This document shows, in pieces, positions 104 through 27,376 of a DNA stretch of 28,763 nucleotides. The notes under the pieces are model-generated. The model had not been told where the DNA came from. It was given only the letters and a program-made list of their open reading frames with translations, and ran no database searches. Source of the stretch: a virus. The stretch's first letter is position 1; each line of letters begins with the position of its first letter. The DNA is taken from positions 1 to 28,763 of IMG/VR virus record IMGVR_UViG_3300007734_000548. One strand, written 5' to 3'. Made by a program: the position numbers and the translations under genes.

Positions 104-382
104 TCACCATTGGCGTGTTGCACCTGGTCGTTGTGGTTGCGCTCGGTTGTTGGAGCGTCGGCTGTTGCAGCCGTGGTGTGCGAGCCGGAGGTTGGCACGG
201 TCGTATGGTGCGCCGCCTTGGCTGATGGGAATGATGTGATCGACACTGTGTGCCCATCGTGTTCTTGGTGCGATGGTGTGGTCTACGACTCTGCCGCATA
301 GCCAGCAGTGGGTTTCTTCTGCGTAGACGGTGAGGCTTATGAGCTTCCACTGTCTGGTACTTCTGCCTTTGCTAGCCATCAT
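104..382 (-). CDS. HNH endonuclease
   Basis: This 92-residue protein carries a compact HNH nuclease domain over most of its length. A CxxC pair (C26, C29) and a later Cys (C72) probably form a structural zinc site. The catalytic core is the SVDHIIP segment (D48-H49) followed by ANLRLAHHGCN (N64, H70). HNH proteins nick or cut DNA with a divalent metal. Small phage HNH proteins often lie beside the terminase genes and assist cos cleavage and packaging, which fits a gene at the end of the early block, but terminase is not visible here. The frame stays open upstream, but that part is low-complexity, so I start at the ATG pair at 382/379. The ribosome site is weak. Confidence 0.85.
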   Translation of the reverse strand: MMASKGRSTRQWKLISLTVYAEETHCWLCGRVVDHTIAPRTRWAHSVDHIIPISQGGAPYDRANLRLAHHGCNSRRSNNRAQPQRPGATRQW

Positions 383-452
383 GCACCTGTGCTTAGGCTG
401 GGTGTGGTGAGACTGCCGTAAGCGTTGCATGGGTTTGTGGTGGTGGTCAAGG
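383..452. other. Short intergenic stretch, nothing recognised
   Basis: These 70 bp separate the HNH gene from the gene transcribed before it. They are rich in G and T on the plus strand. I see no convincing promoter, hairpin or small reading frame, although the HNH frame stays open through it. Confidence 0.4.
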
Positions 453-980
453 TTATCCCTTGGTTTTATTTTCGTGGAGTGCTTGGTTGATTTCTCGTGT
501 GGTGATGCGTCGGCCTTGGCGTTGTCGGTCGACAAGTGTTGTTGGTGGTTGTTCGAGTGTGATGTTGCATTGCATCTGGATGCGTAGGACAAGTTCGGTG
601 CAGGTTCTGCACATGGGGTTGTTGGCTGTTCGTGCGGTCCATGTGCCTACTCGTGCGCAGCTGGTGCAGCCGTCGTCGTGTTGGGTTGTGGTTGCTGCGA
701 TGTGTTGTTGTTTGCGTTGTGGTGGTCGTGCCCTGTTGAGGATGTCTTGTAGTTCGGTGAGTAGGTAGATGGCTCGGTCGTAGTCTTGGTCTGATCGTTC
801 TGGGCCTTTGTCTGCTCGGGTGGTTGCGAGGAGGCCTGTGCGGTCACTGGTCGATGAGGGTGATCCTCCGGTGCCGCCTGCTGGGTAACCACTGCGTTGT
901 TCGATGAGGGCTTGTGCGCCTTGCTCGAGGGTTTGTGTGATGGTGTGGGCGAGTGTGGTGAGCGGGTCGAGGTCTTTCAT
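453..980 (-). CDS. Hypothetical phage protein with a CxxC zinc-finger-like core
   Basis: A 175-residue protein I cannot assign to a family. Residues 1-50 look helical and then disordered (GGTGGSPSS). Residues 66-86 form a probable helix. Two CxxC pairs (CTSC and CRTC, about 18 residues apart, residues 104-126) are laid out like a treble-clef or zinc-ribbon site. The C-terminal 45 residues are basic and polar. A DNA- or RNA-binding role is plausible for a gene in the replication operon but is only inference. The ATG has a good upstream AGGAG and overlaps the stop of the preceding gene by 4 bp (ATGA), indicating translational coupling. Confidence 0.65.
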   Translation of the reverse strand: MKDLDPLTTLAHTITQTLEQGAQALIEQRSGYPAGGTGGSPSSTSDRTGLLATTRADKGPERSDQDYDRAIYLLTELQDILNRARPPQRKQQHIAATTTQHDDGCTSCARVGTWTARTANNPMCRTCTELVLRIQMQCNITLEQPPTTLVDRQRQGRRITTREINQALHENKTKG

Positions 981-1234: not shown

Positions 1235-3310
1235 TTAGAACTCGTCGTATGTGGGTTGGTTTTGGTGTTCGGTTTGTGGGCTGGGATCTCTGTCCCCCCT
1301 ACGGGGTGACAGAGTGTCCCGCTGTGCCTGCGGAATAGTGTCCCGCAGTGTCCCGCTCTCTGTCCCGCCTTTGTTTGTATGGGTTTCGGGTTTTGTCCCG
1401 CAGTGTCCCGCAGTCTGTCCCGCAGTTTTGTCCCGAGGCGTGTCCCGAGCTCTGTCCCGCCCTGTTTTTCGTAGCGAATACTGTGCTGATTTGCGGTATC
1501 TGACTGCCGCTTGTACATCCTTTTTGAGGGTGCCTGTTGGCCCGTTTGTTTTGGTGTGTGCCCAGCATTCTCGGATGGGTGCGTTGGCTGGGATTCCTTC
1601 ACTGTCGAGCCAGTCTGAGAGGTCAAAGATGTGGAGCTCGAACTGTTCGAGGTTGCCGCCTTCCATTGTGAAGGTGGCTTGATCGTCTAGTTCTGCGATG
1701 GTGATGTCTGATTGTTCTGGGTACCAGGACATGCGGCGGTGGGTTGCTGTCCATGTGATTCCTGTTGGTGTGCGTGTGAGGTTGACTACGATGTCAACGT
1801 CATCGTTCTTTGCTGATGATCCTCGTTGGCCTCTGGTGGTGTCTTTGCCTGCGTGGTCGAGGCGTGCCCATGTGATGCCCATGCGTTTGAGTTGCATGCC
1901 GGTGTGGCGGTAGAAGTCTTGGTATGTGCCTGCGTCGTTTTCTTCGCCTTGTACTGCTCGGCCTGTGGTGTCGATGATTACTATTTCTGCGCCGACTGCG
2001 TGGGCTGCTTGGCAGAGTGCGATGCCGCCTTGTGATGTGTCGAGGGGTGCGATGACTGGGAGTTGTGCGTAGTGGAGGTGGTCGAAGATTGTGGACTCAT
2101 AGCCGAATTCTGTGAGGCGGTCGTATAGGTCTGTGGGTGTCATCTCGTAGTCCACATACAGAACATGTTGTGGTGGGCCTTCTGGTTTGCGTAGGAATGG
2201 TTGCCCGGTTGCGAGGGCTGCGCAGGCTGCGAGGGTGACGAAGCTTTTGCCGACTTTGGCGCCTGCGTAGATGGCGTGTGCTCGGCCTTTGGCGAAGAGG
2301 GGTTCGAGTAGCCATTCTGTTTCGGTGTGGTCTGTGGTCCAGAAGGTTTGCCAGTTGATGAGGTATGGGGCGAGCGGATTGGGATCTCCTTGGTCATCAC
2401 TGCTGGCGGTGAGGTGGTTGAGGATGTTGAGGTCGGGTGTTGGTGTGGTGAAGCCTTCGGCTGCGAGGGCTCTGGCTGCTGCAGTGTGGTCGTGGTTGTG
2501 GTGGACTGCTGCGAGGTAACCAAGCTTTGTGTATGTTTCTTCTGCTTTGAGGTTGGGTACTGAGCTGGTGAATACGTGGAGGTTGTCGTTGGCTGTGTTG
2601 CCTGTGGTGGCGCTGATGCCGTCTCGGGGTTCTTTGCCGGGTCTGGTCCAGTAGCGTTCGCCGTTGTTGTCGGTGTGTGAGAGTTGCCAGCCGTCGGGTA
2701 TGAGGATTTGGGCCCAGTCTGTTTGTTGTGCCCATAGGTCACCTGGTCTGTCTGTGGCGGTGATGCTCGAGGTGGGTTGGGTTGGTGTGGGTTCGGGGTC
2801 TTTGTCGCAGATGAGGTCGAGTAGCCATTCGGGTGCGGTGGCTATCTCGGTGCATTGTTCGTCCCATTCGTATGGGTTGCCGTTGGGGTGGATGGTTGGT
2901 GGTGCGACGATCTGCCCGCCTTCTCCACGCACATCAATGCCGTCGAGGATGCTGCTGGCGCTGTTGTGGATGGTGCGTCCGTCTGCCGGCCACTGGTAGA
3001 TCTGGTGTTCACCGCCACTGCCTGTGATGGATGTGAGTGTGGGCGGTAGTTCACCGTGTTCTTGTTCGAGTTCGTAGAGTGCGTCTCGGTCGTCGATGTC
3101 GAGGACCCAGATGCCGGATTGTTTGCCGGTTGCGATGCCTACACCGCAGGAGGATTGTGAGCCCATCCACCATTGGTTGATCTGTGCGGTGCTGGTTGTC
3201 GCAGCGTCTTGCCATTGGTTGATGGCTGGTCGTTTTGTTCCTGGAAGGATTGGTATGACCCGCCAGCCTTTGTGTGCGTACTCGAGCGCTGTGTTGTGTG
3301 GGTCATTCAT
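1235..3310 (-). CDS. Bifunctional primase-polymerase with helicase-type AAA ATPase domain
   Basis: This 691-residue protein is the probable replication initiator. Residues 1-165 form a prim-pol (AEP) domain: a WRVIPILPGTKRP opening, the metal-binding D71-I-D73, H102 in SGGEHQIY, and the conserved IDVRGEGGQIVAPPT stretch around 125-139. A middle linker leads to a RecA/RepA-like ATPase with Walker A GAKVGKS (350-356), a VDYEM segment near 386-390, Walker B VIIDTTG ending in D447, and a later H486 region. Such proteins synthesise primers and unwind DNA at phage and plasmid origins. The tail beyond residue 615 is low-complexity and is encoded by the TGTCCCGC repeat array. The ATG has AGGAA about 8 bases upstream and overlaps the preceding gene by 8 bp. 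Confidence 0.92.
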   Translation of the reverse strand: MNDPHNTALEYAHKGWRVIPILPGTKRPAINQWQDAATTSTAQINQWWMGSQSSCGVGIATGKQSGIWVLDIDDRDALYELEQEHGELPPTLTSITGSGGEHQIYQWPADGRTIHNSASSILDGIDVRGEGGQIVAPPTIHPNGNPYEWDEQCTEIATAPEWLLDLICDKDPEPTPTQPTSSITATDRPGDLWAQQTDWAQILIPDGWQLSHTDNNGERYWTRPGKEPRDGISATTGNTANDNLHVFTSSVPNLKAEETYTKLGYLAAVHHNHDHTAAARALAAEGFTTPTPDLNILNHLTASSDDQGDPNPLAPYLINWQTFWTTDHTETEWLLEPLFAKGRAHAIYAGAKVGKSFVTLAACAALATGQPFLRKPEGPPQHVLYVDYEMTPTDLYDRLTEFGYESTIFDHLHYAQLPVIAPLDTSQGGIALCQAAHAVGAEIVIIDTTGRAVQGEENDAGTYQDFYRHTGMQLKRMGITWARLDHAGKDTTRGQRGSSAKNDDVDIVVNLTRTPTGITWTATHRRMSWYPEQSDITIAELDDQATFTMEGGNLEQFELHIFDLSDWLDSEGIPANAPIRECWAHTKTNGPTGTLKKDVQAAVRYRKSAQYSLRKTGRDRARDTPRDKTAGQTAGHCGTKPETHTNKGGTESGTLRDTIPQAQRDTLSPRRGDRDPSPQTEHQNQPTYDEF
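1315..1460. repeat. Iteron-like array of ten TGTCCCG(C/A) repeats
   Basis: TGTCCCGC starts at 1315, 1339, 1349, 1361, 1394, 1404, 1416 and 1453, with TGTCCCGA at 1429 and 1441 and a degenerate TGTCCCCC at 1291. Most start-to-start distances are 10-13 bp, close to one helical turn. Several are not multiples of three, so the repeat falls in all three reading frames of the primase gene and encodes RD, GT and AG by turns. The DNA word, not the peptide, is therefore conserved. This is the layout of iterons or a multi-copy binding site; the binding protein and role are not known. Confidence 0.75.
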
Positions 3311-4739
3311 TGATGTTTCCTGTGAGCGGTGCTGGGTATTCGTCGGGTAGTTGCATGCCTGGTTGTGTGAGCAGGTTGGGTTTGAGGTGGATTTTGCATC
3401 CTGCTTGGCGTGCTTGTGCGACTATCGCTGCTACCCATTCAAAGTGTGGTGAGAATGCTGGTATGCCGTTGGCTGTGGTTTGTGCGCCGATGACTACCCA
3501 GTCGAACTCGTTGAGTACGCCGTCTGCGAACACGATTGGTTCTAGGAGTGGTTCGATGCTGAGCCAGCGAACTTCTGCTGTTACGTGTTGCATGGAGTGG
3601 GCGATGATGTCTGCTCGTCGTTGTGTGTCTACTGATGCGCCGACGCAGGCTTGTTTGGGGAATGTGAGCCCTTTGTATCTGCTGGGGAATTTGGTGAGGA
3701 AGATGTATCGCCATTGTGGGTTGTTGTTGCATGCTTGGAATACTTCTTCGATCCAGTGGTCTGGTACCCATTTGCCGAATAGGTCGGCCATTGAGCAGAC
3801 GAACACTGATCGTGATGCTTGTGTGGTTTGTTTGGGTGTTGGTGTGTTGCTTGGTGCTGTGAGGCGTTCGGGCCTGTATGTGGGTTCGAAGCCTGTTGGG
3901 AATGTTTGGTTGGTTCGGTCTGATGTGGCGATTGCTCGTGCGTAGCAGTAGTCGCAGCCGTGGTCGCAGCCTGTGACTGGGTTCCATGACCAGTCTGCCC
4001 ATGAGATCCCATCGCCTTTTGATTTGTTGAACACAGGTTTTTTGGATGCTTGGTGTTGGAGTGTTGTGCCGTCTGCTTTGTGGAGGGTTGTGAGTGTGAC
4101 GGGTGTGCCTTCGGCGGGTGTGTCGGGTTTGGGGTCTGGTGCTGGTTTGTTTGCTTGGCGTTGTTTGACTTGTTTCTCTGCTGCGTCGAGGGCGAGCTCA
4201 CCGTTGTTTACTTGTTCGGCTAGGTCTGGTGCGTTTTCTTTGATGCGTTTGGCTTGGCCTACTGATCGGCCTGATGCGCCTGCGACTGCTGCTGCATGAT
4301 CTCGTGCCTGTGGCGCACGCTCAATAACCTGAGGCAGATCTGCCTCAGGTTTATCACTGTGTGTGGTTGGTCTGCCTGTTGACAGTTTGAGGCGTTGTGC
4401 TGCTTCGATTTCGTAATGCTCGAGGATGTTCGCTGCAAGCATTGCCCGCTGACCAGCAGTCATATCCCTGCGCAGATCGTTAGCTCGAATAATTGCCTGC
4501 ACAAGGTCGGCGTTCTTTGGTAGTCGCTTCCATGATGGGTATATGCCAGCTTCTTTGCATGCTGCTAAACGGTTGCGACCGTCAACGATGATGAGCCCTG
4601 TGTGATCGGTCAGTATCGGTTCCCGCAAACCGTTGTCTCGTATGTCAGCGACAAGAGCTGCAAACCTTTCCTGATTAAACATCGGGTATAGGTCTGCGAG
4701 CCAATGGACGGTTGGTTCTTCAAGCTGTGATTCAGTCAT
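3303..4739 (-). CDS. ParB-like domain fused to phage Gp37/Gp68 three-Cys-motif (radical-SAM-like) protein
   Basis: This 478-residue protein is a two-part fusion. Residues 1-120 are a ParB/Srx-like N-terminal domain (NGLREPIL and the DGRNRLAACKEAG box), followed by a helical ParB-like stretch (RDMTAGQRAMLAANIL, then SGRSVGQAKRIKE). After a charged, proline-rich linker (about 190-240), the C-terminal 235 residues are a phage Gp37/Gp68 (DUF5131) domain with SWNPVTGCDHGCDYCYA: Cys 258, 262 and 265 form CxxxCxxC, the spacing that binds the radical-SAM 4Fe-4S cluster. Family members usually pair with TcmP, encoded just upstream. A chemistry on DNA or nucleotides is likely but unproven. ATG 4739 has GGAG about 7 bases upstream and overlaps the TcmP stop; GTG 4742 is an alternative start. 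Confidence 0.88.
   Translation of the reverse strand: MTESQLEEPTVHWLADLYPMFNQERFAALVADIRDNGLREPILTDHTGLIIVDGRNRLAACKEAGIYPSWKRLPKNADLVQAIIRANDLRRDMTAGQRAMLAANILEHYEIEAAQRLKLSTGRPTTHSDKPEADLPQVIERAPQARDHAAAVAGASGRSVGQAKRIKENAPDLAEQVNNGELALDAAEKQVKQRQANKPAPDPKPDTPAEGTPVTLTTLHKADGTTLQHQASKKPVFNKSKGDGISWADWSWNPVTGCDHGCDYCYARAIATSDRTNQTFPTGFEPTYRPERLTAPSNTPTPKQTTQASRSVFVCSMADLFGKWVPDHWIEEVFQACNNNPQWRYIFLTKFPSRYKGLTFPKQACVGASVDTQRRADIIAHSMQHVTAEVRWLSIEPLLEPIVFADGVLNEFDWVVIGAQTTANGIPAFSPHFEWVAAIVAQARQAGCKIHLKPNLLTQPGMQLPDEYPAPLTGNINE
4326..4351. repeat. 26-bp perfect palindrome inside the ParB/three-Cys gene
   Basis: The 13 bases at 4326-4338 (AACCTGAGGCAGA) are exactly repeated as the reverse complement at 4339-4351, with no loop. 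It encodes residues around 130-138, in the linker after the ParB-like core. It lies where the plus-strand G/T-rich composition of the early block gives way to a more balanced one. It could be an operator, a cruciform-forming site or a recombination joint; no partner copy was noticed in the window. Confidence 0.8.
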
Positions 4740-5794
4740 CACTTCACTCCGTACTTGTTGTGTAGCTGTGCGTAAATTTGTTTCATGTTGAGGCGGTCAG
4801 ATTGTTCTGTAAGTTCGTCAACGGTGAATACCAAGTACTCGATCAATTCGATGAACCCCTCGTTAGTCTTTGGCATTAGCAGGTCATAGTGTTTTAACTG
4901 CCCGGAATCTGATGCTTTCCGATACTCCTTTTCGATCCTCTTTACGGTTTCTTCGTAAAAGCGTTCCGCTGTGTTGATCAGGTATCCCCATCTCGAGTCA
5001 TCTTTGCCGAACGCAAACATGATTGGGATGTGATGCTCTGGCCTGCCGTTAATCGTCTTTACGATCTTGTCGTACCATCCTGCTCGTTGCTCGTAAGGCA
5101 ATCGTTTAAGACCGTTCGGGTTACATCCGAGCGTCGAGTACTGCGTTACTCGTACATGTTTGTCAGCAAGTTTTTTGTACTGTGCTGCGTCGAGCGCAAA
5201 ATCGTTGACGTTGTTTGGGTCGTTGTTAATAAAGGCAAAGTCTTTTGAACGTAACGGGTAGCTCAGCAGATCAACTGTCTTGGCATCGTCGTTTAAAGTT
5301 TCGATGTACAACTCTGTTTGGGTTGTCCTGTTTACAAACTTCCATGATCGGCCAGTGTCCGTCGTGCCACGCCTTATCTCGTATGATTGACCTGCTGGAT
5401 TGACGTGAAGGTTTATGTGATCTTCTAAATTACTTTCGAGTCGTTCATGTGTCTGTCCGTGCCGTTCAATAAAGAACAGGTTGAGATCGAACCGTGTTGC
5501 ATTTTTGAGGATGAATGCAGCGTGTTTGATAAAGATTTCAGGTGATGACGCAATGCCGCCATCACGATCTGGCCCACCATCACCTGCGCACAAGTCGACC
5601 CACATAGCCCTGCTGCCAGCGTGTCTATCAAAAGCGCATACGCCTGCTTCTACGCCGACCATAGCGTTTAGGATCGCATGTTTCATCGGTGTTCTGTCTG
5701 ATGTGCCAACGAGTGTCGGTACTCTCGGTTTGGCTTTGATTGGTGCTAAGGGTTGTTCTTCTAATTCGTCTTGGTTGAACAGGTCTGCTTGCAT
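4739..5794 (-). CDS. tcmP: Three-Cys-motif partner protein TcmP
   Basis: At 351 residues this matches the TcmP family, named as the partner of the three-Cys-motif (Gp37/Gp68) proteins; here that partner is the next gene, overlapping by 1 bp or more. Residues 62-75 hold WVDLCAGDGG, which resembles motif I of class I S-adenosylmethionine methyltransferases, and FINNDPNN (188-195) sits where a DPP-type catalytic motif would be. The C-terminal third is helical and charged (RFYEETVKRIEKEYRK). A nucleic-acid methyltransferase-like role is inference from these motifs. The gene is visibly more A/T-rich and balanced between strands than the genes from 104 to about 4250, consistent with separate acquisition. 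AAAGGA lies 6 bases before the ATG. Confidence 0.85.
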   Translation of the reverse strand: MQADLFNQDELEEQPLAPIKAKPRVPTLVGTSDRTPMKHAILNAMVGVEAGVCAFDRHAGSRAMWVDLCAGDGGPDRDGGIASSPEIFIKHAAFILKNATRFDLNLFFIERHGQTHERLESNLEDHINLHVNPAGQSYEIRRGTTDTGRSWKFVNRTTQTELYIETLNDDAKTVDLLSYPLRSKDFAFINNDPNNVNDFALDAAQYKKLADKHVRVTQYSTLGCNPNGLKRLPYEQRAGWYDKIVKTINGRPEHHIPIMFAFGKDDSRWGYLINTAERFYEETVKRIEKEYRKASDSGQLKHYDLLMPKTNEGFIELIEYLVFTVDELTEQSDRLNMKQIYAQLHNKYGVK

Positions 5795-5803
5795 GTTTGT
5801 CCT

Positions 5804-6232
5804 TTACTGCTGGTTGAAGTGGTAGGAGTCTGGTTCGGGTTGTGTGTTGGATGTGTGTGTGATGATGCCGCCTTGTGCGAGGCGTGTGAGTGCGTTGCGT
5901 GTGGCGTGTTTTGTGTAGTGCGGGTGGAGTGCTAGGTATACCTGGTTGACTGTCATGGGTTCACCAACGTGTTCGAGTAGCGCTGCGATCCTCTCGGTGG
6001 ACATTGGTGCTGCTGTTGTGGATCTTCCAAAGCCTCGTTCTGCTGGTGTGAGCCCGCCCCACATGCCGAACACTTCGTGTGCGCCGTCTTGTGCGCATGC
6101 TTGTTTGACTTCGCATGTGTTGCAGATGGTGCGGGCCTGTTCCCATACTTGCCCGTAGTTGTTGCGGTCTGGGAAGAATGTTTCTTTAGGGTGGTAGCGG
6201 CATGCTGCAATGTCCCATTCATCAGGTGTCAT
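5804..6232 (-). CDS. WhiB-like iron-sulfur transcriptional regulator with C-terminal winged-helix-like region
   Basis: A 142-residue protein. Residues 5-68 form a Wbl domain with four cluster cysteines C11, C37, C40 and C46 (C..CNTC..C) and the turn GMWGGLTPAE at 56-65, close to the classical G(V/I)WGG. Wbl proteins bind a 4Fe-4S cluster and the housekeeping sigma factor and act on actinobacterial promoters; phage copies can alter host gene expression. The second half (about 75-135, MSTERIAALLEH, NALTRLAQGGIITH) looks like a winged-helix domain, longer than the usual short C-tail. The ATG at 6232 is preferred because the upstream extension of this frame runs through the zinc-ribbon gene; the two overlap by 11 bp. 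Confidence 0.9.
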   Translation of the reverse strand: MTPDEWDIAACRYHPKETFFPDRNNYGQVWEQARTICNTCEVKQACAQDGAHEVFGMWGGLTPAERGFGRSTTAAPMSTERIAALLEHVGEPMTVNQVYLALHPHYTKHATRNALTRLAQGGIITHTSNTQPEPDSYHFNQQ

Positions 6233-6374
6233 TTGTTGTGGGGGATTCTTTGCATTGTGGGCAGTGTTCTGGGCACCACCATCTGATCCCACGCACATCA
6301 GCTGTGTCGTGGTCTACTCCTGGTGTGACCTGTTTGCCGCACTGGTGGCACTGCTCGAGCTTTTGATCTGTCAT
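6222..6374 (-). CDS. Small zinc-ribbon-like protein (50 residues)
   Basis: A 50-residue protein with cysteines in CHQC (9-12) and CPEHCPQC (34-41), the arrangement of a one-site zinc ribbon or rubredoxin-like knuckle. The middle (VTPGVDHDTADVRGIRWW) is short, leaving room for a single metal site. The ATG at 6374 overlaps the stop of the upstream WhiB-like gene by 4 bp (ATGA) and its own end overlaps the next WhiB-like start by 11 bp, so it is sandwiched and coupled between two regulators. A role as a small nucleic-acid-binding or adaptor protein is inference. The same frame stays open upstream to 6698, but that part shadows the WhiB gene. Confidence 0.75.
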   Translation of the reverse strand: MTDQKLEQCHQCGKQVTPGVDHDTADVRGIRWWCPEHCPQCKESPTTNDT

Positions 6375-6790
6375 GCGACTCCTTCGGGGTGTCGGGTGTT
6401 GTGCCGTCTGAGCGAGTCGGGTGTGATACCAAGGTCGTGCGCTGCGATCTCTAAGGGTTCCGTGTTGATGATGTGGTCCCGTAGTTGGAGGAGGTCGAGG
6501 TTCTTTTTGATCATGTGTTTGCGGTGGCGTTCTGCGGTGGTTTGCCCGCCGACAATCCCACCGTCGTATCTGCCGAGGGCTTGCAGGCATTCGGCTTGTA
6601 CAGGGCATGCAGCGCACACTGCTTGTGCTTGTCGTTGTTTGGCGTGCCCGTTGTATCCTGCTTCTGGGTAGAACAGGTTTGTGTCCATCCCACGGCACGC
6701 AGCGTGCTTACGCCAGTGGGCCTGTGCGTTGCAGTCCTCGAGGATGATGGTGAGGTGGTCGAGCATCTCAGCCCGTACAGGTAGCCGCAT
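6371..6790 (-). CDS. Second WhiB-like iron-sulfur regulator
   Basis: A 139-residue Wbl-type protein. The cluster ligands are C32, C59, C62 and C68 (AACRG..VCAACPVQAEC). The usual G(V/I)WGG turn appears as GGIVGG (77-82), with the tryptophan missing, unlike the neighbouring copy. Residues 105-135 (HDLGITPDSLRRHN) read as a helix-turn-helix that could contact DNA. ATG 6790 has GGTGA 8 bases upstream; a GTG at 6802 in the same frame is an alternative, overlapping the preceding stop. The loss of tryptophan in the turn that contacts the sigma factor in known Wbl proteins may change its partner. Confidence 0.88.
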   Translation of the reverse strand: MRLPVRAEMLDHLTIILEDCNAQAHWRKHAACRGMDTNLFYPEAGYNGHAKQRQAQAVCAACPVQAECLQALGRYDGGIVGGQTTAERHRKHMIKKNLDLLQLRDHIINTEPLEIAAHDLGITPDSLRRHNTRHPEGVA

Positions 6791-6794
6791 GAGG

Positions 6795-7112
6795 TCACTC
6801 ACCTAACAGCATTTGCTCAGCTGGTGCAGCGGGTTCAGCCTCAACCAGTTCGAGCTCGAGCAGGTCCGCTGCAGTGATCAGTGCGTGAGCGATGTCTCGG
6901 ATAGCTGCAAGCTTCTGCGCCTTCGTCCCAATGCCCTCCAGGAAGAACACAGCTTTGCCGATACTGAAACTGATATGACTTACATCGTCGCCACGCATCC
7001 TCACATCGACCATCTTTGCGTTCGTATGGAAGAAGTCAACCTCGTTGAGCTCCTGGTACACGGTGGCTTTGATTGCTTGCATCGTGCGTTTGGATGATTC
7101 CTTTGTGCTCAT
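6795..7112 (-). CDS. Hypothetical protein, paralogue of the gene at 9691-9975
   Basis: A 105-residue protein without a recognisable family. Its core (KMVDVRMRGDDVSHISFSIG, then KAVFFLEG) matches the core of the 94-residue protein at 9691-9975 (KMVSAD.., HVAFHVGRATFFLEG), followed in both by a helix of about 25 residues. The two are paralogues with a small beta-sheet plus helix layout. The C-terminal tail is acidic. The start is ATG 7112, sharing one base with the preceding stop (TGATG); the GTG just before it (7115) is an alternative. A copy at each end of the nuclease block suggests an early-phase accessory role, but nothing more specific can be said. Confidence 0.65.
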   Translation of the reverse strand: MSTKESSKRTMQAIKATVYQELNEVDFFHTNAKMVDVRMRGDDVSHISFSIGKAVFFLEGIGTKAQKLAAIRDIAHALITAADLLELELVEAEPAAPAEQMLLGE

Positions 7113-22286: not shown

Positions 22287-22697
22287 TCAGGTACCAACGC
22301 TGCTGATCGTTGAAGCAGCAGAACCGGTACCGCTGATCTCAACCGCACCGCTCACCGTCTGAGTGATTGACAGATCAAAGTGCGCAAGCCCAAAGAAGTA
22401 CTGAGCGTTGTCAGTCGACGGGTACAGGTAGAACTTGCGCCCTGCGGCAACCGAGGTTGTGATGTTGTACTGTGATCCTGCTGCAGTATCCCAGAACCCA
22501 CCGAAGCTGATGCTGCCATCAGGCAAACCAACAACATAGGTCTTGGAACCGTCGCCGAAGCTCGTGACCTCTGTTTTGTCTGTGGTTGAATCCAAACCCC
22601 ATGTGTTCAGGTTTGCGATCGGTGTAGCGGAACCGTTGCCGGCACTGGAATTATCTGCATAGACACGGCCCTTGCGACCGCTGATCGGATTAGCCAT
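22287..22697 (-). CDS. Major tail protein (tail tube)
   Basis: A 136-residue protein that precedes the chaperone gene by 2 bp. It begins MANPISGRKGRVYADN and continues as a beta sandwich with TDKTEVTSFGDGSKTYVVGL, GSISFGGFWDT, KFYLYPSTDNAQYFFG and FDLSITQTVSGAVEISG, ending in the VEISGTGS pattern typical of tail tube subunits. It polymerises into the tail tube. Its start shares one base with the preceding stop (TAATG); an ATG 27 bases further upstream is less likely. Confidence 0.82.
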   Translation of the reverse strand: MANPISGRKGRVYADNSSAGNGSATPIANLNTWGLDSTTDKTEVTSFGDGSKTYVVGLPDGSISFGGFWDTAAGSQYNITTSVAAGRKFYLYPSTDNAQYFFGLAHFDLSITQTVSGAVEISGTGSAASTISSVGT

Positions 22698-23737
22698 TAG
22701 CTTTCTCTTTTCACTAGGCCACAAGCCTCTAGAAGCTTGTGGGCATTCATTGGAAACGTACGATCAGCGACCACACGTTTTGCCTGCTCAGCAGCAATTT
22801 GCCGCTCAACGGGATTCTCAAGAGCCCAGCGAATTAACTCGCCAAGTTCTTCAGGACTATTAAAAGTAGGGAGCATCGGAAACAACTCATCAGACTCACC
22901 ACGAGACTGCCGTGCAAACCAAGTGCCAGATGCCGCAAGCTCGATCTCACGAGGCCCAACAGACCAACCATCAGCACCATCAGAAATATCACCGTTGTTC
23001 TCAGTACGGTAAATGTTGAACGAGGTTTTAGCACCACGGTACAACTCAGCAGTCTGCACATTGTCAATGCAGTCTTCGATATCATGCACAACACGATCAG
23101 CCAGGACTGTTGGCACATTCTGCCAGTTACCCGCAAGAGCCAAGTCAATGCCGTCGAAGTTGCACCGCTCAAGGAAAGCAACCCTCGACGGGTAACCCGT
23201 ACCAACAAACACACAATCGCTGAGATAGTCCTCGTGGGCTTCGCCCTCGTGATGGATGTCAGGCCGGTAAGCATGCGGAGTGTAGATAGCTGTTGTTAGC
23301 GTTGCGTACTGGCCCATGTTTGTCGGGTCGTTCAATGCCACAGCATCGAAGTGCGGTGCGATCAACAACTGGCGTGATTCCTCATACGGTGATTCTGTCA
23401 TCACGCACGCTGTTTTGATTCCACGCCCACGGCAAACCTCAAGAAACTGCGGGTCAACCGTGAAACCTGAAACGAACACGATGAGTTGCGGCCACCAGTA
23501 CAACACTGATTGTGGCAGGCCACTAATCGCAAACGAGTACACATTCTCTGGTTTTGGGAACGCCTTGACGAAGGTGCCGTCATCCATGCCAAGGTGCGCA
23601 ATCGCAGCCCATGTGAGCCGGTCACCCAAATTGTAAGACTGGACCTCGTGGCCTAACTCTGTAAACCCCTCAACCCAACCATCATGCACATCTTGCACCG
23701 AGAAGTTAGGACCAGGGTGAACAACAAGAATACGCAC
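22697..23737 (-). CDS. GT-B glycosyltransferase, CgeB/DUF3880-like
   Basis: A 346-residue protein. The N-terminal Rossmann-like domain starts MRILVVHPGPNFSVQD and holds PQLIVFVSGF, GIKTACVMTESPYE and FDAVALNDP. The C-terminal domain has VFVGTGYPSRVAFLE, LALAGNW, LYRGAKTSFNIYR and the nucleotide-sugar-binding GPREIELAASGTWFARQ, followed by SPEELGELIRWAL. This matches CgeB-like glycosyltransferases, which use a nucleotide-sugar donor. The acceptor is unknown. It is placed between head-tail connector and major tail genes, an unusual spot, pointing to a virion or tail-tube modification. The GTG start at 23737 overlaps the preceding stop (TAGTG). Confidence 0.85.
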   Translation of the reverse strand: MRILVVHPGPNFSVQDVHDGWVEGFTELGHEVQSYNLGDRLTWAAIAHLGMDDGTFVKAFPKPENVYSFAISGLPQSVLYWWPQLIVFVSGFTVDPQFLEVCRGRGIKTACVMTESPYEESRQLLIAPHFDAVALNDPTNMGQYATLTTAIYTPHAYRPDIHHEGEAHEDYLSDCVFVGTGYPSRVAFLERCNFDGIDLALAGNWQNVPTVLADRVVHDIEDCIDNVQTAELYRGAKTSFNIYRTENNGDISDGADGWSVGPREIELAASGTWFARQSRGESDELFPMLPTFNSPEELGELIRWALENPVERQIAAEQAKRVVADRTFPMNAHKLLEACGLVKRES

Positions 23738-24225
23738 TACTTGCGGTGAGCTTCCAACAGCGCAAACTTCTGAGTGCGTTTGTACGCTTGCATTGCGCCT
23801 GCTTGGCTTGAACGGATACCGATAGCCCACGCACTAGTGCCATGCCTACCAGGGTGAACCACAGAACCGCTGGCAAACCCGCCATCAGCGAACTTCAAAG
23901 CTTTCAAACCTTTACGTTTCCTCGGTTTAATAACGTGAGCGGGTGACCCATACTCGAGTACCCACCAGATCCCCATCGGTCGTGCAAGCAGTGTTGCGTT
24001 CGCATGGACTTTGCTGCCACCAACCTCAAACCCTGCGCCTAAGCGTGGGCCTTGCTTGCCTTTCCATTTGGAAAACCTGCGATCACCACCAGTGAACCCA
24101 GCGGCAGAACTCAACACACCAGACTTGTAAACCATCGCAGCGGCAATCGTCGCTTTGCGGTTTACGTCGGTGAGGTTGTCACCGTATTTGATCATCTTAA
24201 AACCGAACGAATCAACTGCGCTCAT
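23737..24225 (-). CDS. Head-tail connector / tail completion protein (gp10-like)
   Basis: A 162-residue basic protein in the neck-gene position, after the connector genes and before the tail genes. Its core (GFKMIKYGDNLTDVNRKATI, AMVYKSGVLSSAAG) and the segment WWVLEYGSPAHVIKPRKRKG resemble HK97 gp10-like tail-completion or neck proteins. It probably joins the portal-connector to the tail. It overlaps the preceding gene by 4 bp (ATGA). Confidence 0.72.
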   Translation of the reverse strand: MSAVDSFGFKMIKYGDNLTDVNRKATIAAAMVYKSGVLSSAAGFTGGDRRFSKWKGKQGPRLGAGFEVGGSKVHANATLLARPMGIWWVLEYGSPAHVIKPRKRKGLKALKFADGGFASGSVVHPGRHGTSAWAIGIRSSQAGAMQAYKRTQKFALLEAHRK

Positions 24226-25232: not shown

Positions 25233-25715
25233 TCATCTCCATGCTGCAGCCCGTACGTCTTCGCCTTGCACATCAATCACATGCTTTGAAAAGTTGCGAT
25301 CCAAAAGCTGTGCAAGCAAATCGGGGTCAATGTTGTTGTAGTACTCACCTGGTTGCAAAGCCCCACCATCGGAAGCGGAGTGCGCTGCCCGACCGTGCGT
25401 AGCTGCGGTGAAGATCAGCAGACCAGTTTTCTTGTTCAGAAGGTCCCTGATGTGTTTGAGGTGAAGCGGCCAGTCATGCGTGTGTTCCGCAACTTCAAGG
25501 TACAAGCCCACATCGAATGGTTGTTCATTGCCGTAATCCAAGATGTCGCCAACCCATGTCACCTCTGGTGAAGGCACAAGGTCCACGACTTCAAACGTCG
25601 AATGCTCAAACAGGTACTCAGGGTTGCCGTTGATGTCCCGCCCGCCCACATCGAGCACAGTGCAAGGCCCAGAAGGTACCCACCTTTGAACCCACTCAAG
25701 CACTGCATGGTGCAT
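25233..25715 (-). CDS. Class I SAM-dependent methyltransferase
   Basis: A 160-residue protein. Motif I is TVLDVGGRDINGN (about 19-31); FEVVDLVPSP follows as the second strand; VGDILDYGNEQPFDVGLYLEVAEHTHDW holds the acidic post-I and motif IV-like parts (given as two joined segments); LLNKKTGLLIFTAAT is the fifth strand. The fold is a short Rossmann methyltransferase like those acting on small molecules or sugars, as no target-recognition domain is seen. It lies between a polytopic membrane protein and the connector gene, inside the head block. Its ATG shares one base with the preceding stop (TAATG), so it is coupled to the membrane-protein gene. Confidence 0.8.
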   Translation of the reverse strand: MHHAVLEWVQRWVPSGPCTVLDVGGRDINGNPEYLFEHSTFEVVDLVPSPEVTWVGDILDYGNEQPFDVGLYLEVAEHTHDWPLHLKHIRDLLNKKTGLLIFTAATHGRAAHSASDGGALQPGEYYNNIDPDLLAQLLDRNFSKHVIDVQGEDVRAAAWR

Positions 25716-26524
25716 TAGATGACCTCGGGCTTTCTCCACCAGAAGAAGTGAGCAATCAGTATCAGCGGCAACCATTGCACCGGCAACACCTGCACAGCCG
25801 CTAAGGCCATCACAGGCCCAGCAGCCGTGTGCAACAGTCGAACCGTGTCAGTAGCAACCAGAAGCTGTGCATACGCTAGAACGAGAATCAGAAGCGTCTG
25901 CCACGACGGACGGTAAAGCGCTGCGAGTGTCGCACCCCACGGTGCGACCATCAGCCAAGCATCACGCCAACGCCCACAATGAGCTTCCATAGCAGTGATC
26001 ACAGGATGCTCATACACCCTGCGCAACAAAGGTTGTGCAGTCACCTGATCAACCTGTGGTTTGCGAACAAACCAGACAACAGCCGGCACGATCAAACCGA
26101 TCAGCATGATCGGATGCCATGCCCACACTGCAGCAAACACAGGTGAAGTTTCCTTGATGGAAGCGGCAACCAGAATCAGCAACACCGCTACAGGCCACAG
26201 GCCGTGATCGAAACAAGCAACCGCCATGATCGCCACAGCCATCGCAGGTAAATCAACGCCAACAGGACGTACTACTTGCGGGCCCCACACTCCTGGCAAC
26301 GCCAGCAACAACACCGCTGCAGCTGCCGCACGCTCGATGCCAAGATCCCAGCACCACCACAACATCCCTGCTGCAGCCACAACCCACGACGCAACCCACA
26401 CCGCACGCCACCTGCGCAAATCATCCTTACAAACAGTCGGCAACAACCAGCGCAGGTTAAACGGTCGTGCTACCGGAACACCCTTGCCAGCAAGGATGTA
26501 CCTGCTGGCATCAGGTCCTAGCAT
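25715..26524 (-). CDS. Polytopic membrane protein, unknown (GT-C-like possible)
   Basis: A 269-residue protein with about seven or eight membrane segments, e.g. WVASWVVAAAGMLWW (44-58), the alanine/leucine stretch 66-80, AMAVAIMAVACF, LWPVAVLLILVAAS, IMLIGLIVPAVVWFV, and two or three near the C-terminus. The N-terminal stretch before the first span (GPDASRYILAGKGVPVARPF) and NLRWLLPTVC could be the loop of a truncated GT-C-type glycosyltransferase or a sugar-lipid transporter. Neither is proven. A multi-span protein between capsid and connector genes is unusual. It overlaps the glycosyltransferase gene by 14 bp, so the two should be made together. Confidence 0.7.
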   Translation of the reverse strand: MLGPDASRYILAGKGVPVARPFNLRWLLPTVCKDDLRRWRAVWVASWVVAAAGMLWWCWDLGIERAAAAAVLLLALPGVWGPQVVRPVGVDLPAMAVAIMAVACFDHGLWPVAVLLILVAASIKETSPVFAAVWAWHPIMLIGLIVPAVVWFVRKPQVDQVTAQPLLRRVYEHPVITAMEAHCGRWRDAWLMVAPWGATLAALYRPSWQTLLILVLAYAQLLVATDTVRLLHTAAGPVMALAAVQVLPVQWLPLILIAHFFWWRKPEVI

Positions 26525-27314
26525 TATCGTCCGTCAGCTTCGGCTCCTCTGGCGGTTGCACACCCATCGTCTTCGTGTCTTCAGGCCAGTAAACCCGCCC
26601 GCCTTTGTGATGACCAACATGCGCAGTCGTGTCCACATAAACCTTGTGGCCCTGCTCGCCCGCACGCAAACAAAAACTCACATCCTCGCCCAACGCCCAT
26701 TCCGAGCCATCATCACCAAAGCGAATATCGAAACCAAACCAGCAGTTCGTACTGCCACCACTCTGATCAAACATCTGTTGCAACACTGAGCGGTGGATCA
26801 GCAAGCACCCAGTGCCTGTGGCTGTGACTTGTGCCAGCTGGTTTGGTGCCCAGTCCAGCATCACTTGTGTGATGGTGTTGGGGTCATCAATGAACAAGGT
26901 TGGGATGCAGCCATCACTAGTCAAGATCACGCACAAGGCACCCAATACTTTGACATCATGTTCAACTGCTCGTGCAACCATTTGGTGCATCAACTCTGGT
27001 TTGAAAACCATGTCAGTGTCTACAAACCACAACCACTCTGCTTCAAGGTTGTTGTGCAAGAACTCATCACAAAGCCTGTTACGAGCTTTGGCAAGGTTTG
27101 CTGTGGCTTCCAAAGCCACATAGTTATGCAGCAAGCGCAGATCAATTGGGTTGGGTGACTCTGGGGCACCTAGTGCTTCCCAGATTTGTACTGCTCGTTC
27201 TCGGTCCCACATATCAAGTTCCCAGAAGGAGCGCATGAAACGTGTGGAAATGTCGTGGCCTGTTGAAGGAAACGCCAGCAGCACTTTGCCAGGGTGATCA
27301 AAAGTCTCTTGCAT
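26511..27314 (-). CDS. GT-A family glycosyltransferase
   Basis: A 267-residue protein with a GT2-like core. VLLAFPSTGHDISTRFM opens it; LAKARNRLCDEFL precedes the metal-binding WLWFVDTDMVF with D99-T100-D101 (DxD); VTATGTGCLLIHRS and GFDIRFG follow; ALGEDVSFCLRAGEQGHKVYVD holds the acidic E210-D211 pair, then HVGHH may bind metal. It should transfer a sugar from a nucleotide donor. It is the first gene after the capsid gene and is followed by a membrane protein and a methyltransferase, so capsid or cell-wall glycan modification is plausible. AAAGGA lies 6 bases before ATG 27314. Confidence 0.85.
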   Translation of the reverse strand: MQETFDHPGKVLLAFPSTGHDISTRFMRSFWELDMWDRERAVQIWEALGAPESPNPIDLRLLHNYVALEATANLAKARNRLCDEFLHNNLEAEWLWFVDTDMVFKPELMHQMVARAVEHDVKVLGALCVILTSDGCIPTLFIDDPNTITQVMLDWAPNQLAQVTATGTGCLLIHRSVLQQMFDQSGGSTNCWFGFDIRFGDDGSEWALGEDVSFCLRAGEQGHKVYVDTTAHVGHHKGGRVYWPEDTKTMGVQPPEEPKLTDDNART

Positions 27315-27343
27315 GTTTATCCTTTGGGTTTTCGGAATTGGGT

Positions 27344-27376
27344 GGTGGTGCAAGCAAGCCCACTGCCTGCACCACC
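27344..27376 (-). terminator. Hairpin after the capsid gene
   Basis: GGTGGTGCA (27344-27352) pairs with TGCACCACC (27368-27376), and the stem can extend by a base or two. It lies between the capsid stop (27390) and the glycosyltransferase start (27314). There is no long T-run, so it may be a partial terminator or a 3' stabiliser that keeps capsid mRNA abundant and the downstream genes lower. Confidence 0.55.

Follow-up and report, generated by a model that had tools for sequence, protein, structure and literature searches.

The genes gpA and gpB form a linked unit that recurs across unrelated viruses. They lie on the minus strand of the window, the linear virus record of 28,763 bases analysed here, which apparently derives from an actinobacterial phage as judged from two WhiB-like genes, a Prim-Pol gene, and tail- and capsid-type genes. 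gpA (3303..4742) encodes a fusion of a ParB-type arm to a DUF5131 radical-SAM domain, with 479 residues if read from GTG or 478 if read from the next codon, ATG, and gpB (4739..5794) encodes a divergent TcmP of 351 residues with a class-I, RlmJ-like methyltransferase fold. Considering the features seen directly (the genes, their domains and predicted folds, the linkage, purifying selection, and the conserved cysteines and methyltransferase residues), we give an even chance to the reading that gpA and gpB are a phage-encoded, DNA-targeted nucleic-acid modification unit composed of two enzymes. In such a unit, the ParB/HTH arm of gpA would bind DNA, perhaps in a nucleotide-gated manner, and would place the radical-SAM domain, which resembles that of spore photoproduct lyase (SPL), onto it; gpB, as an RlmJ-like SAM methyltransferase, would share this target, with an exocyclic amine as its most likely site of action, and would act either before or after the radical step. 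The DNA-binding arm speaks for DNA as the substrate, the pair of SAM-dependent folds speaks for a modification in two steps, and the operon setting suggests action during phage replication. We therefore infer that both proteins are catalytically active and act together on DNA, the likely target being the phage's own DNA because the genes stand between regulators and a primase-helicase gene. Nucleic-acid modification appears to be the best-supported idea of an earlier note on this DNA.

That note had placed the two genes within 3303-5794, with gpA translated from an overlap with tcmP and next to a replication gene, and the gene arrangement is as described. The overlap between gpA and gpB (4739..4742, minus strand) comprises 4 bp, GTGA, or 1 bp, TGATG, if ATG is the start; either start is possible, with GGAG preceding GTG by 4 nt and ATG by 7 nt. 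Downstream, gpA overlaps by 8 bp the gene for a Prim-Pol/AAA primase-helicase (1235..3310, minus strand), and the pair is part of a replication operon, between this gene and the regulators. Two WhiB-like regulator genes lie directly upstream of gpB (5804-6298 and 6371-6802, minus strand). At the left end of the window is an ORF that, by eye, encodes a phage-type HNH endonuclease (104-592, minus strand), unlike the small type present in related units, and glycosyltransferase-like and methyltransferase-like genes are found among the structural genes (22697-23830, 25233-25775 and 26511-27353, minus strand, the last being assigned to this group by eye only). Scans of the window for Rfam families, tRNAs and promoters gave nothing relevant.

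The description of gpA as a radical-SAM-like three-Cys protein holds up well. Residues 245-454 (3381..4010, minus strand) match DUF5131 (PF07505) with an E value of 9e-40 and 137.1 bits, exceeding the gathering score of 28.9, and all three cysteines of the CxxxCxxC motif are invariant in 60 relatives (codons at 3945..3968, minus strand; Cys 259/263/266 counted from GTG, and 258/262/265, the numbers given in the earlier note, counted from ATG). The radical SAM model PF04055 gives 17.4 bits for gpA, under its cut-off of 29.5, and is matched at E ≤ 0.01 by 36 of the 60 relatives. TIGR04471, a radical-SAM mobile-pair model, is matched by every one of 46 proteins in a broadly drawn DUF5131 set, and the window's own match falls under the model cut-off. 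AF2 models of gpA and gpB were built from 59-60 sequences. The gpA model (mean pLDDT 89) matches the folds of ParB/Noc/KorB, spore photoproduct lyase (4fhg, E 3.8e-4) and then RlmN; the last two matches indicate a radical-SAM fold, albeit with modest TM-scores (0.28-0.31 with SPL, taken over the whole of gpA). Absence of a radical-SAM or a Rossmann fold had been named beforehand as an outcome that would count against the proposal, and the models show both. Like other members of the phage Gp37/Gp68 family (DUF5131), gpA has the CxxxCxxC motif and the conserved core in residues 245-454, whereas the sampled cultured phages carry a solo gene and gpA is fused to its ParB arm.

Spore photoproduct lyase (SplB) is the nearest solved radical-SAM fold to this domain, which raises the alternative that gpA is a DNA repair enzyme that reverses lesions in the manner of SPL, with the ParB arm to guide it and gpB in an accessory role. 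Cys316 of gpA, which occurs in more than 90% of the 60 closest relatives, sits 57 residues past the first cluster cysteine, a spacing to be set beside the 50 residues by which C140 follows C90 in SPL, and a plasmid copy of the unit has Ku and DNA ligase genes in its vicinity. Nevertheless, Cys316 is not invariant, gpA has 12% identity to SplB and a low TM-score, the record contains no SPL family match, and no solved protein matches the DUF5131 profile by sequence. Repair, which also leaves the methyltransferase partner unexplained, is therefore an improbable function for the pair.

Residues of about 12-200 of gpA (4143..4709, minus strand) comprise a ParB/Srx-like NTP-pocket domain and a helix-turn-helix. 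ParB profiles match at residues of about 20-200 (phrog_21315, E 1.7e-14; phrog_4715 ParB, E 2e-10), TIGR00180 matches under its cut-off (E 1.3e-5), and the family profile of the arm matches Noc/ParB with an E value of about 1e-10. The Pfam ParB_N model (PF02195) returned no row for gpA itself and is matched by 11 of 60 relatives, with a best E value of 9.4e-11. The family profile and the ParB/Noc/KorB folds of the model nevertheless place a ParB N-terminal fold with an HTH in this arm, in keeping with the note's idea of a ParB-like domain that might bind DNA or nucleotide; we think that the arm probably binds DNA and is perhaps nucleotide-gated. The arm shares the NTP-pocket and HTH fold and the profile match with ParB/Noc/KorB but differs in having GRNR for GERR and in being fused to an enzyme, and a partition role is not implied. 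DGRNR is in place and the GERR glutamate, a criterion for a CTP-hydrolysing ParB, is absent, which we count against the DNA-modification reading.

The second protein contains both VDLCAGDGG and NNDPNN, and its model (pLDDT 83.6, pTM 0.82) has a class-I methyltransferase fold, as befits the methyltransferase-like partner that had been proposed. The top match is RlmJ (E 4e-6), with a modest TM-score of about 0.4-0.5, and a viral fold library returned mostly methyltransferase-type folds from large eukaryotic viruses; a tblastn search of phages with gpB gave no match. gpB matches TcmP (TIGR04474) with an E value of 0.0017 and 18.3 bits, under the curated cut-off of 53; 20 of 59 relatives match this model at E ≤ 0.001. 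Because of the low score of gpB, the TcmP name needed a profile-profile test, and hhalign aligned the gpB group with a set of sequences of which one is a true TcmP (97.9%, E 4.7e-13). gpB has the same fold as TcmP and the same order beside DUF5131, although, apart from its low score, its subfamily is distinguished by RTPxKH, NDPN and STLGCNxxGLKR blocks. E. coli RlmJ is itself weakly matched by TIGR04474 (E 0.0012).

In all three alignment modes, RlmJ residues D40 and G44 (motif I), S100-P101 (SP motif), D143 and D164 fall on conserved gpB columns, and K18, the motif X lysine, falls on gpB K38 in one of the three. The only columns invariant in the 59 sequences of the gpB family are K38, D67 and D192. 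Residues D67, G71, E110 (in two of three modes), D192 and P193 of gpB correspond to motif I, the acidic residue of motif II and the Asp-Pro of motif IV. The last motif reads NDPN (N191-D192-P193-N194; 5213..5224, minus strand), with D192 aligned with the catalytic D164 of RlmJ, and the K18A and D164A replacements each abolish RlmJ activity (PMC3814359). The full DPPY motif is not kept, the second proline being replaced by asparagine to give DPN in 48 of the 59 sequences, which also counts against the DNA-modification reading. With the SAM-binding residues and the catalytic Asp of RlmJ kept and the second proline of DPPY changed, gpB has the look of a functional RlmJ/Dam-type SAM enzyme whose substrate pocket has been altered. 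RlmJ, the 23S rRNA m6A2030 methyltransferase, shares about 10% identity with gpB, and no counterpart of its residues Y4 and H6 was found in gpB.

These comparisons bear on two other readings. The pair might modify rRNA or tRNA of the host translation machinery, given that the solved fold nearest to gpB is a 23S rRNA methyltransferase and that RlmN is among the fold matches of gpA. RlmJ and RlmN act on rRNA or tRNA, and we count this against DNA as the substrate. The fused ParB/HTH arm, however, speaks for DNA, as do the HTH-like N-termini that replace it in related loci, and modification of RNA is in our judgement unlikely. Alternatively, gpA and gpB might together be a DNA-binding regulatory complex, with no catalytic activity left in one of them or in both, as could be argued from the altered GERR motif of gpA and from motif IV of gpB, which is degenerate at the second proline and at the aromatic position. 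A dead enzyme does not need the conservation that is seen, since in 59-60 divergent sequences neither the cluster cysteines nor D192 vary and the SAM motif is highly conserved. We therefore regard such a complex as very unlikely.

A scan of viral contigs provided DUF5131 relatives, of which the best 80 were taken, and loci with enough upstream sequence were typed with profiles made in this analysis; since sampling is skewed toward relatives of the query, the counts are linkage figures and not abundances. A TcmP neighbour is present in 43 of 44 sampled viral ParB-DUF5131 loci and in 16 of 18 viral DUF5131 loci with another N-terminus, and in only 1 of the 12 viral DUF5131 genes in the sample that have no N-terminal extension. 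When a TcmP profile was used to search 8,964 ORFs with no positional information, 70 of 72 matches were found to sit immediately upstream of DUF5131, and the exact 4-bp overlap occurs in 22 TcmP/DUF5131 pairs. We considered whether short DUF5131 genes have an overlooked TcmP, but TIGR04474 finds a match in only 1 of 16 searched genomes that hold them. Distances within the DUF5131 and TcmP families are correlated (r 0.59, a value that none of 2,000 permutations reached), and this correlation partly reflects shared phage ancestry. Moreover, comparison with a sister contig gives dN/dS values of 0.19 for gpA and 0.14 for gpB, indicating purifying selection on both genes. Chance ORFs are ruled out by the linkage and dN/dS values, and a one-off fusion by the presence of the same two-gene arrangement in dozens of unrelated viral contigs. 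Neighbours of the unit include DNA methylases, DnaB helicases and RecA-like ATPases in a tally made without a background control; adjacency to DNA-metabolism genes is normal in phage replication modules. In one locus, the upstream partner of the DUF5131 gene (L004:2338-3444) is Rossmann-like by eye and has no match to any TcmP model.

The ParB fusion had been presented as a peculiarity of this protein; it is instead the commonest N-terminus of a large DUF5131 clade. A single origin of the arm is not supported, in that the N-terminus changes 17 times on the DUF5131 tree and at least 7 of these changes are forced by well-supported branches. Pfam named none of six tested N-termini that lack the ParB profile; by eye, several are ParB/Srx-like (L062, L073) or HTH-like. 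A separate ParB-like gene lies immediately downstream of one ParB-DUF5131 fusion (L003:5749-6555). Many TcmP-DUF5131 units also contain a small HNH/zinc-type gene of 75-130 codons between, after or fused to TcmP (L010:3715-3975, L015:3726-3974, L058:3453-3677, L027:5398-5700 and others; fused in L044:2553-3749 and L062:2553-3446); the earlier note had mentioned neither this gene nor the RlmJ-like active site of gpB. An HNH gene stands between or beside the pair in 17 of 44 viral ParB units, PF01844 scores above its cut-off in two of four HNH genes tested, and the window has no HNH gene of this small, unit-associated type.

The HNH gene bears on the main rival reading, that of a phage-carried system for defence or superinfection exclusion in which gpA and gpB, joined by HNH in those loci that have it, would either label self DNA or attack the DNA of incoming phages in a restriction-modification-like or abortive manner. 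Support for this idea is provided by PADLOC, which lists two-gene TcmP and DUF5131 pairs as the defence candidates PDC-M30 and PDC-M41, a fact that we count against the DNA-modification reading. The DUF5131 domain of gpA matches PDC-M41B (E 1.6e-36) and PDC-M30B (E 3.1e-36), and TcmP partners in some related loci match PDC-M30A/M41A. In addition, among 100 P. aeruginosa strains PDC-M30 was seen in 32, and 68.8% of these 32 were phage-resistant (PMC10855318); an expression table lists S. meliloti tcmP (SMa2243) beside the Hna defence gene (PMC12445080). The PDC systems are guilt-by-embedding predictions, however, and gpB does not match the A-gene (TcmP) models of PDC-M30/M41. Unlike those candidates, gpA and gpB have a ParB arm and lie inside a phage replication operon, overlapping the primase gene, with no HNH gene of the unit type in the window. 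Defence is thus a possible function to which we assign clearly less weight than to modification of phage DNA. The anti-defence role that the earlier note had suggested finds no direct support, the published annotation being that of candidate defence.

A broader version of the DNA-modification reading is more speculative, and we think it somewhat less probable still than defence. A widespread phage system would combine radical-SAM and RlmJ-like methyltransferase chemistry to make a new DNA base modification, would exchange its DNA-binding arm, ParB being the commonest, and would become a restriction-like weapon where the optional HNH is present. If correct, phage biology would gain a new route of DNA modification, or a computational defence candidate would become a testable enzyme system. 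Both families, DUF5131 and TcmP, are found commonly among phages and plasmids. In the open-access literature, which leaves most subscription journals outside its scope, we found no paper naming DUF5131 and no functional study of Gp37/Gp68, PDC-M41 or TcmP chemistry. The DUF5131/TcmP pairing is already known, and the fusion to a DNA-binding arm looks to have been little noticed. Taken with the RlmJ-like active site of gpB and a linkage that is nearly strict, the arm leads to concrete predictions, namely a DNA substrate, named residues and a two-protein reaction.

Outside the viral contigs, a first genome scan gave no relatives and a second, broader one did. Besides Streptomyces and its actinobacterial relatives, delta-proteobacterial, Bacteroidota and Methanoperedens assemblies carry the fusion. 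Linkage is looser in genomes than in viral contigs (a TcmP neighbour for 7 of 12 ParB fusions). Among 50,697 phage records, not one covers 80% of gpA, and DUF5131 in the cultured phages examined is short, with about 250-330 residues. In Gordonia phage Jablanski, gene 43 (L170:3719-4843), annotated only as a methyltransferase, is a true TcmP (E 1.2e-33) and is convergent with a short DUF5131 gene. One Streptomyces plasmid, from Streptomyces caniferus (L177), carries the ParB-DUF5131/TcmP unit, annotated as DUF5131 and a hypothetical protein, close to genes for Ku and an ATP-dependent DNA ligase.
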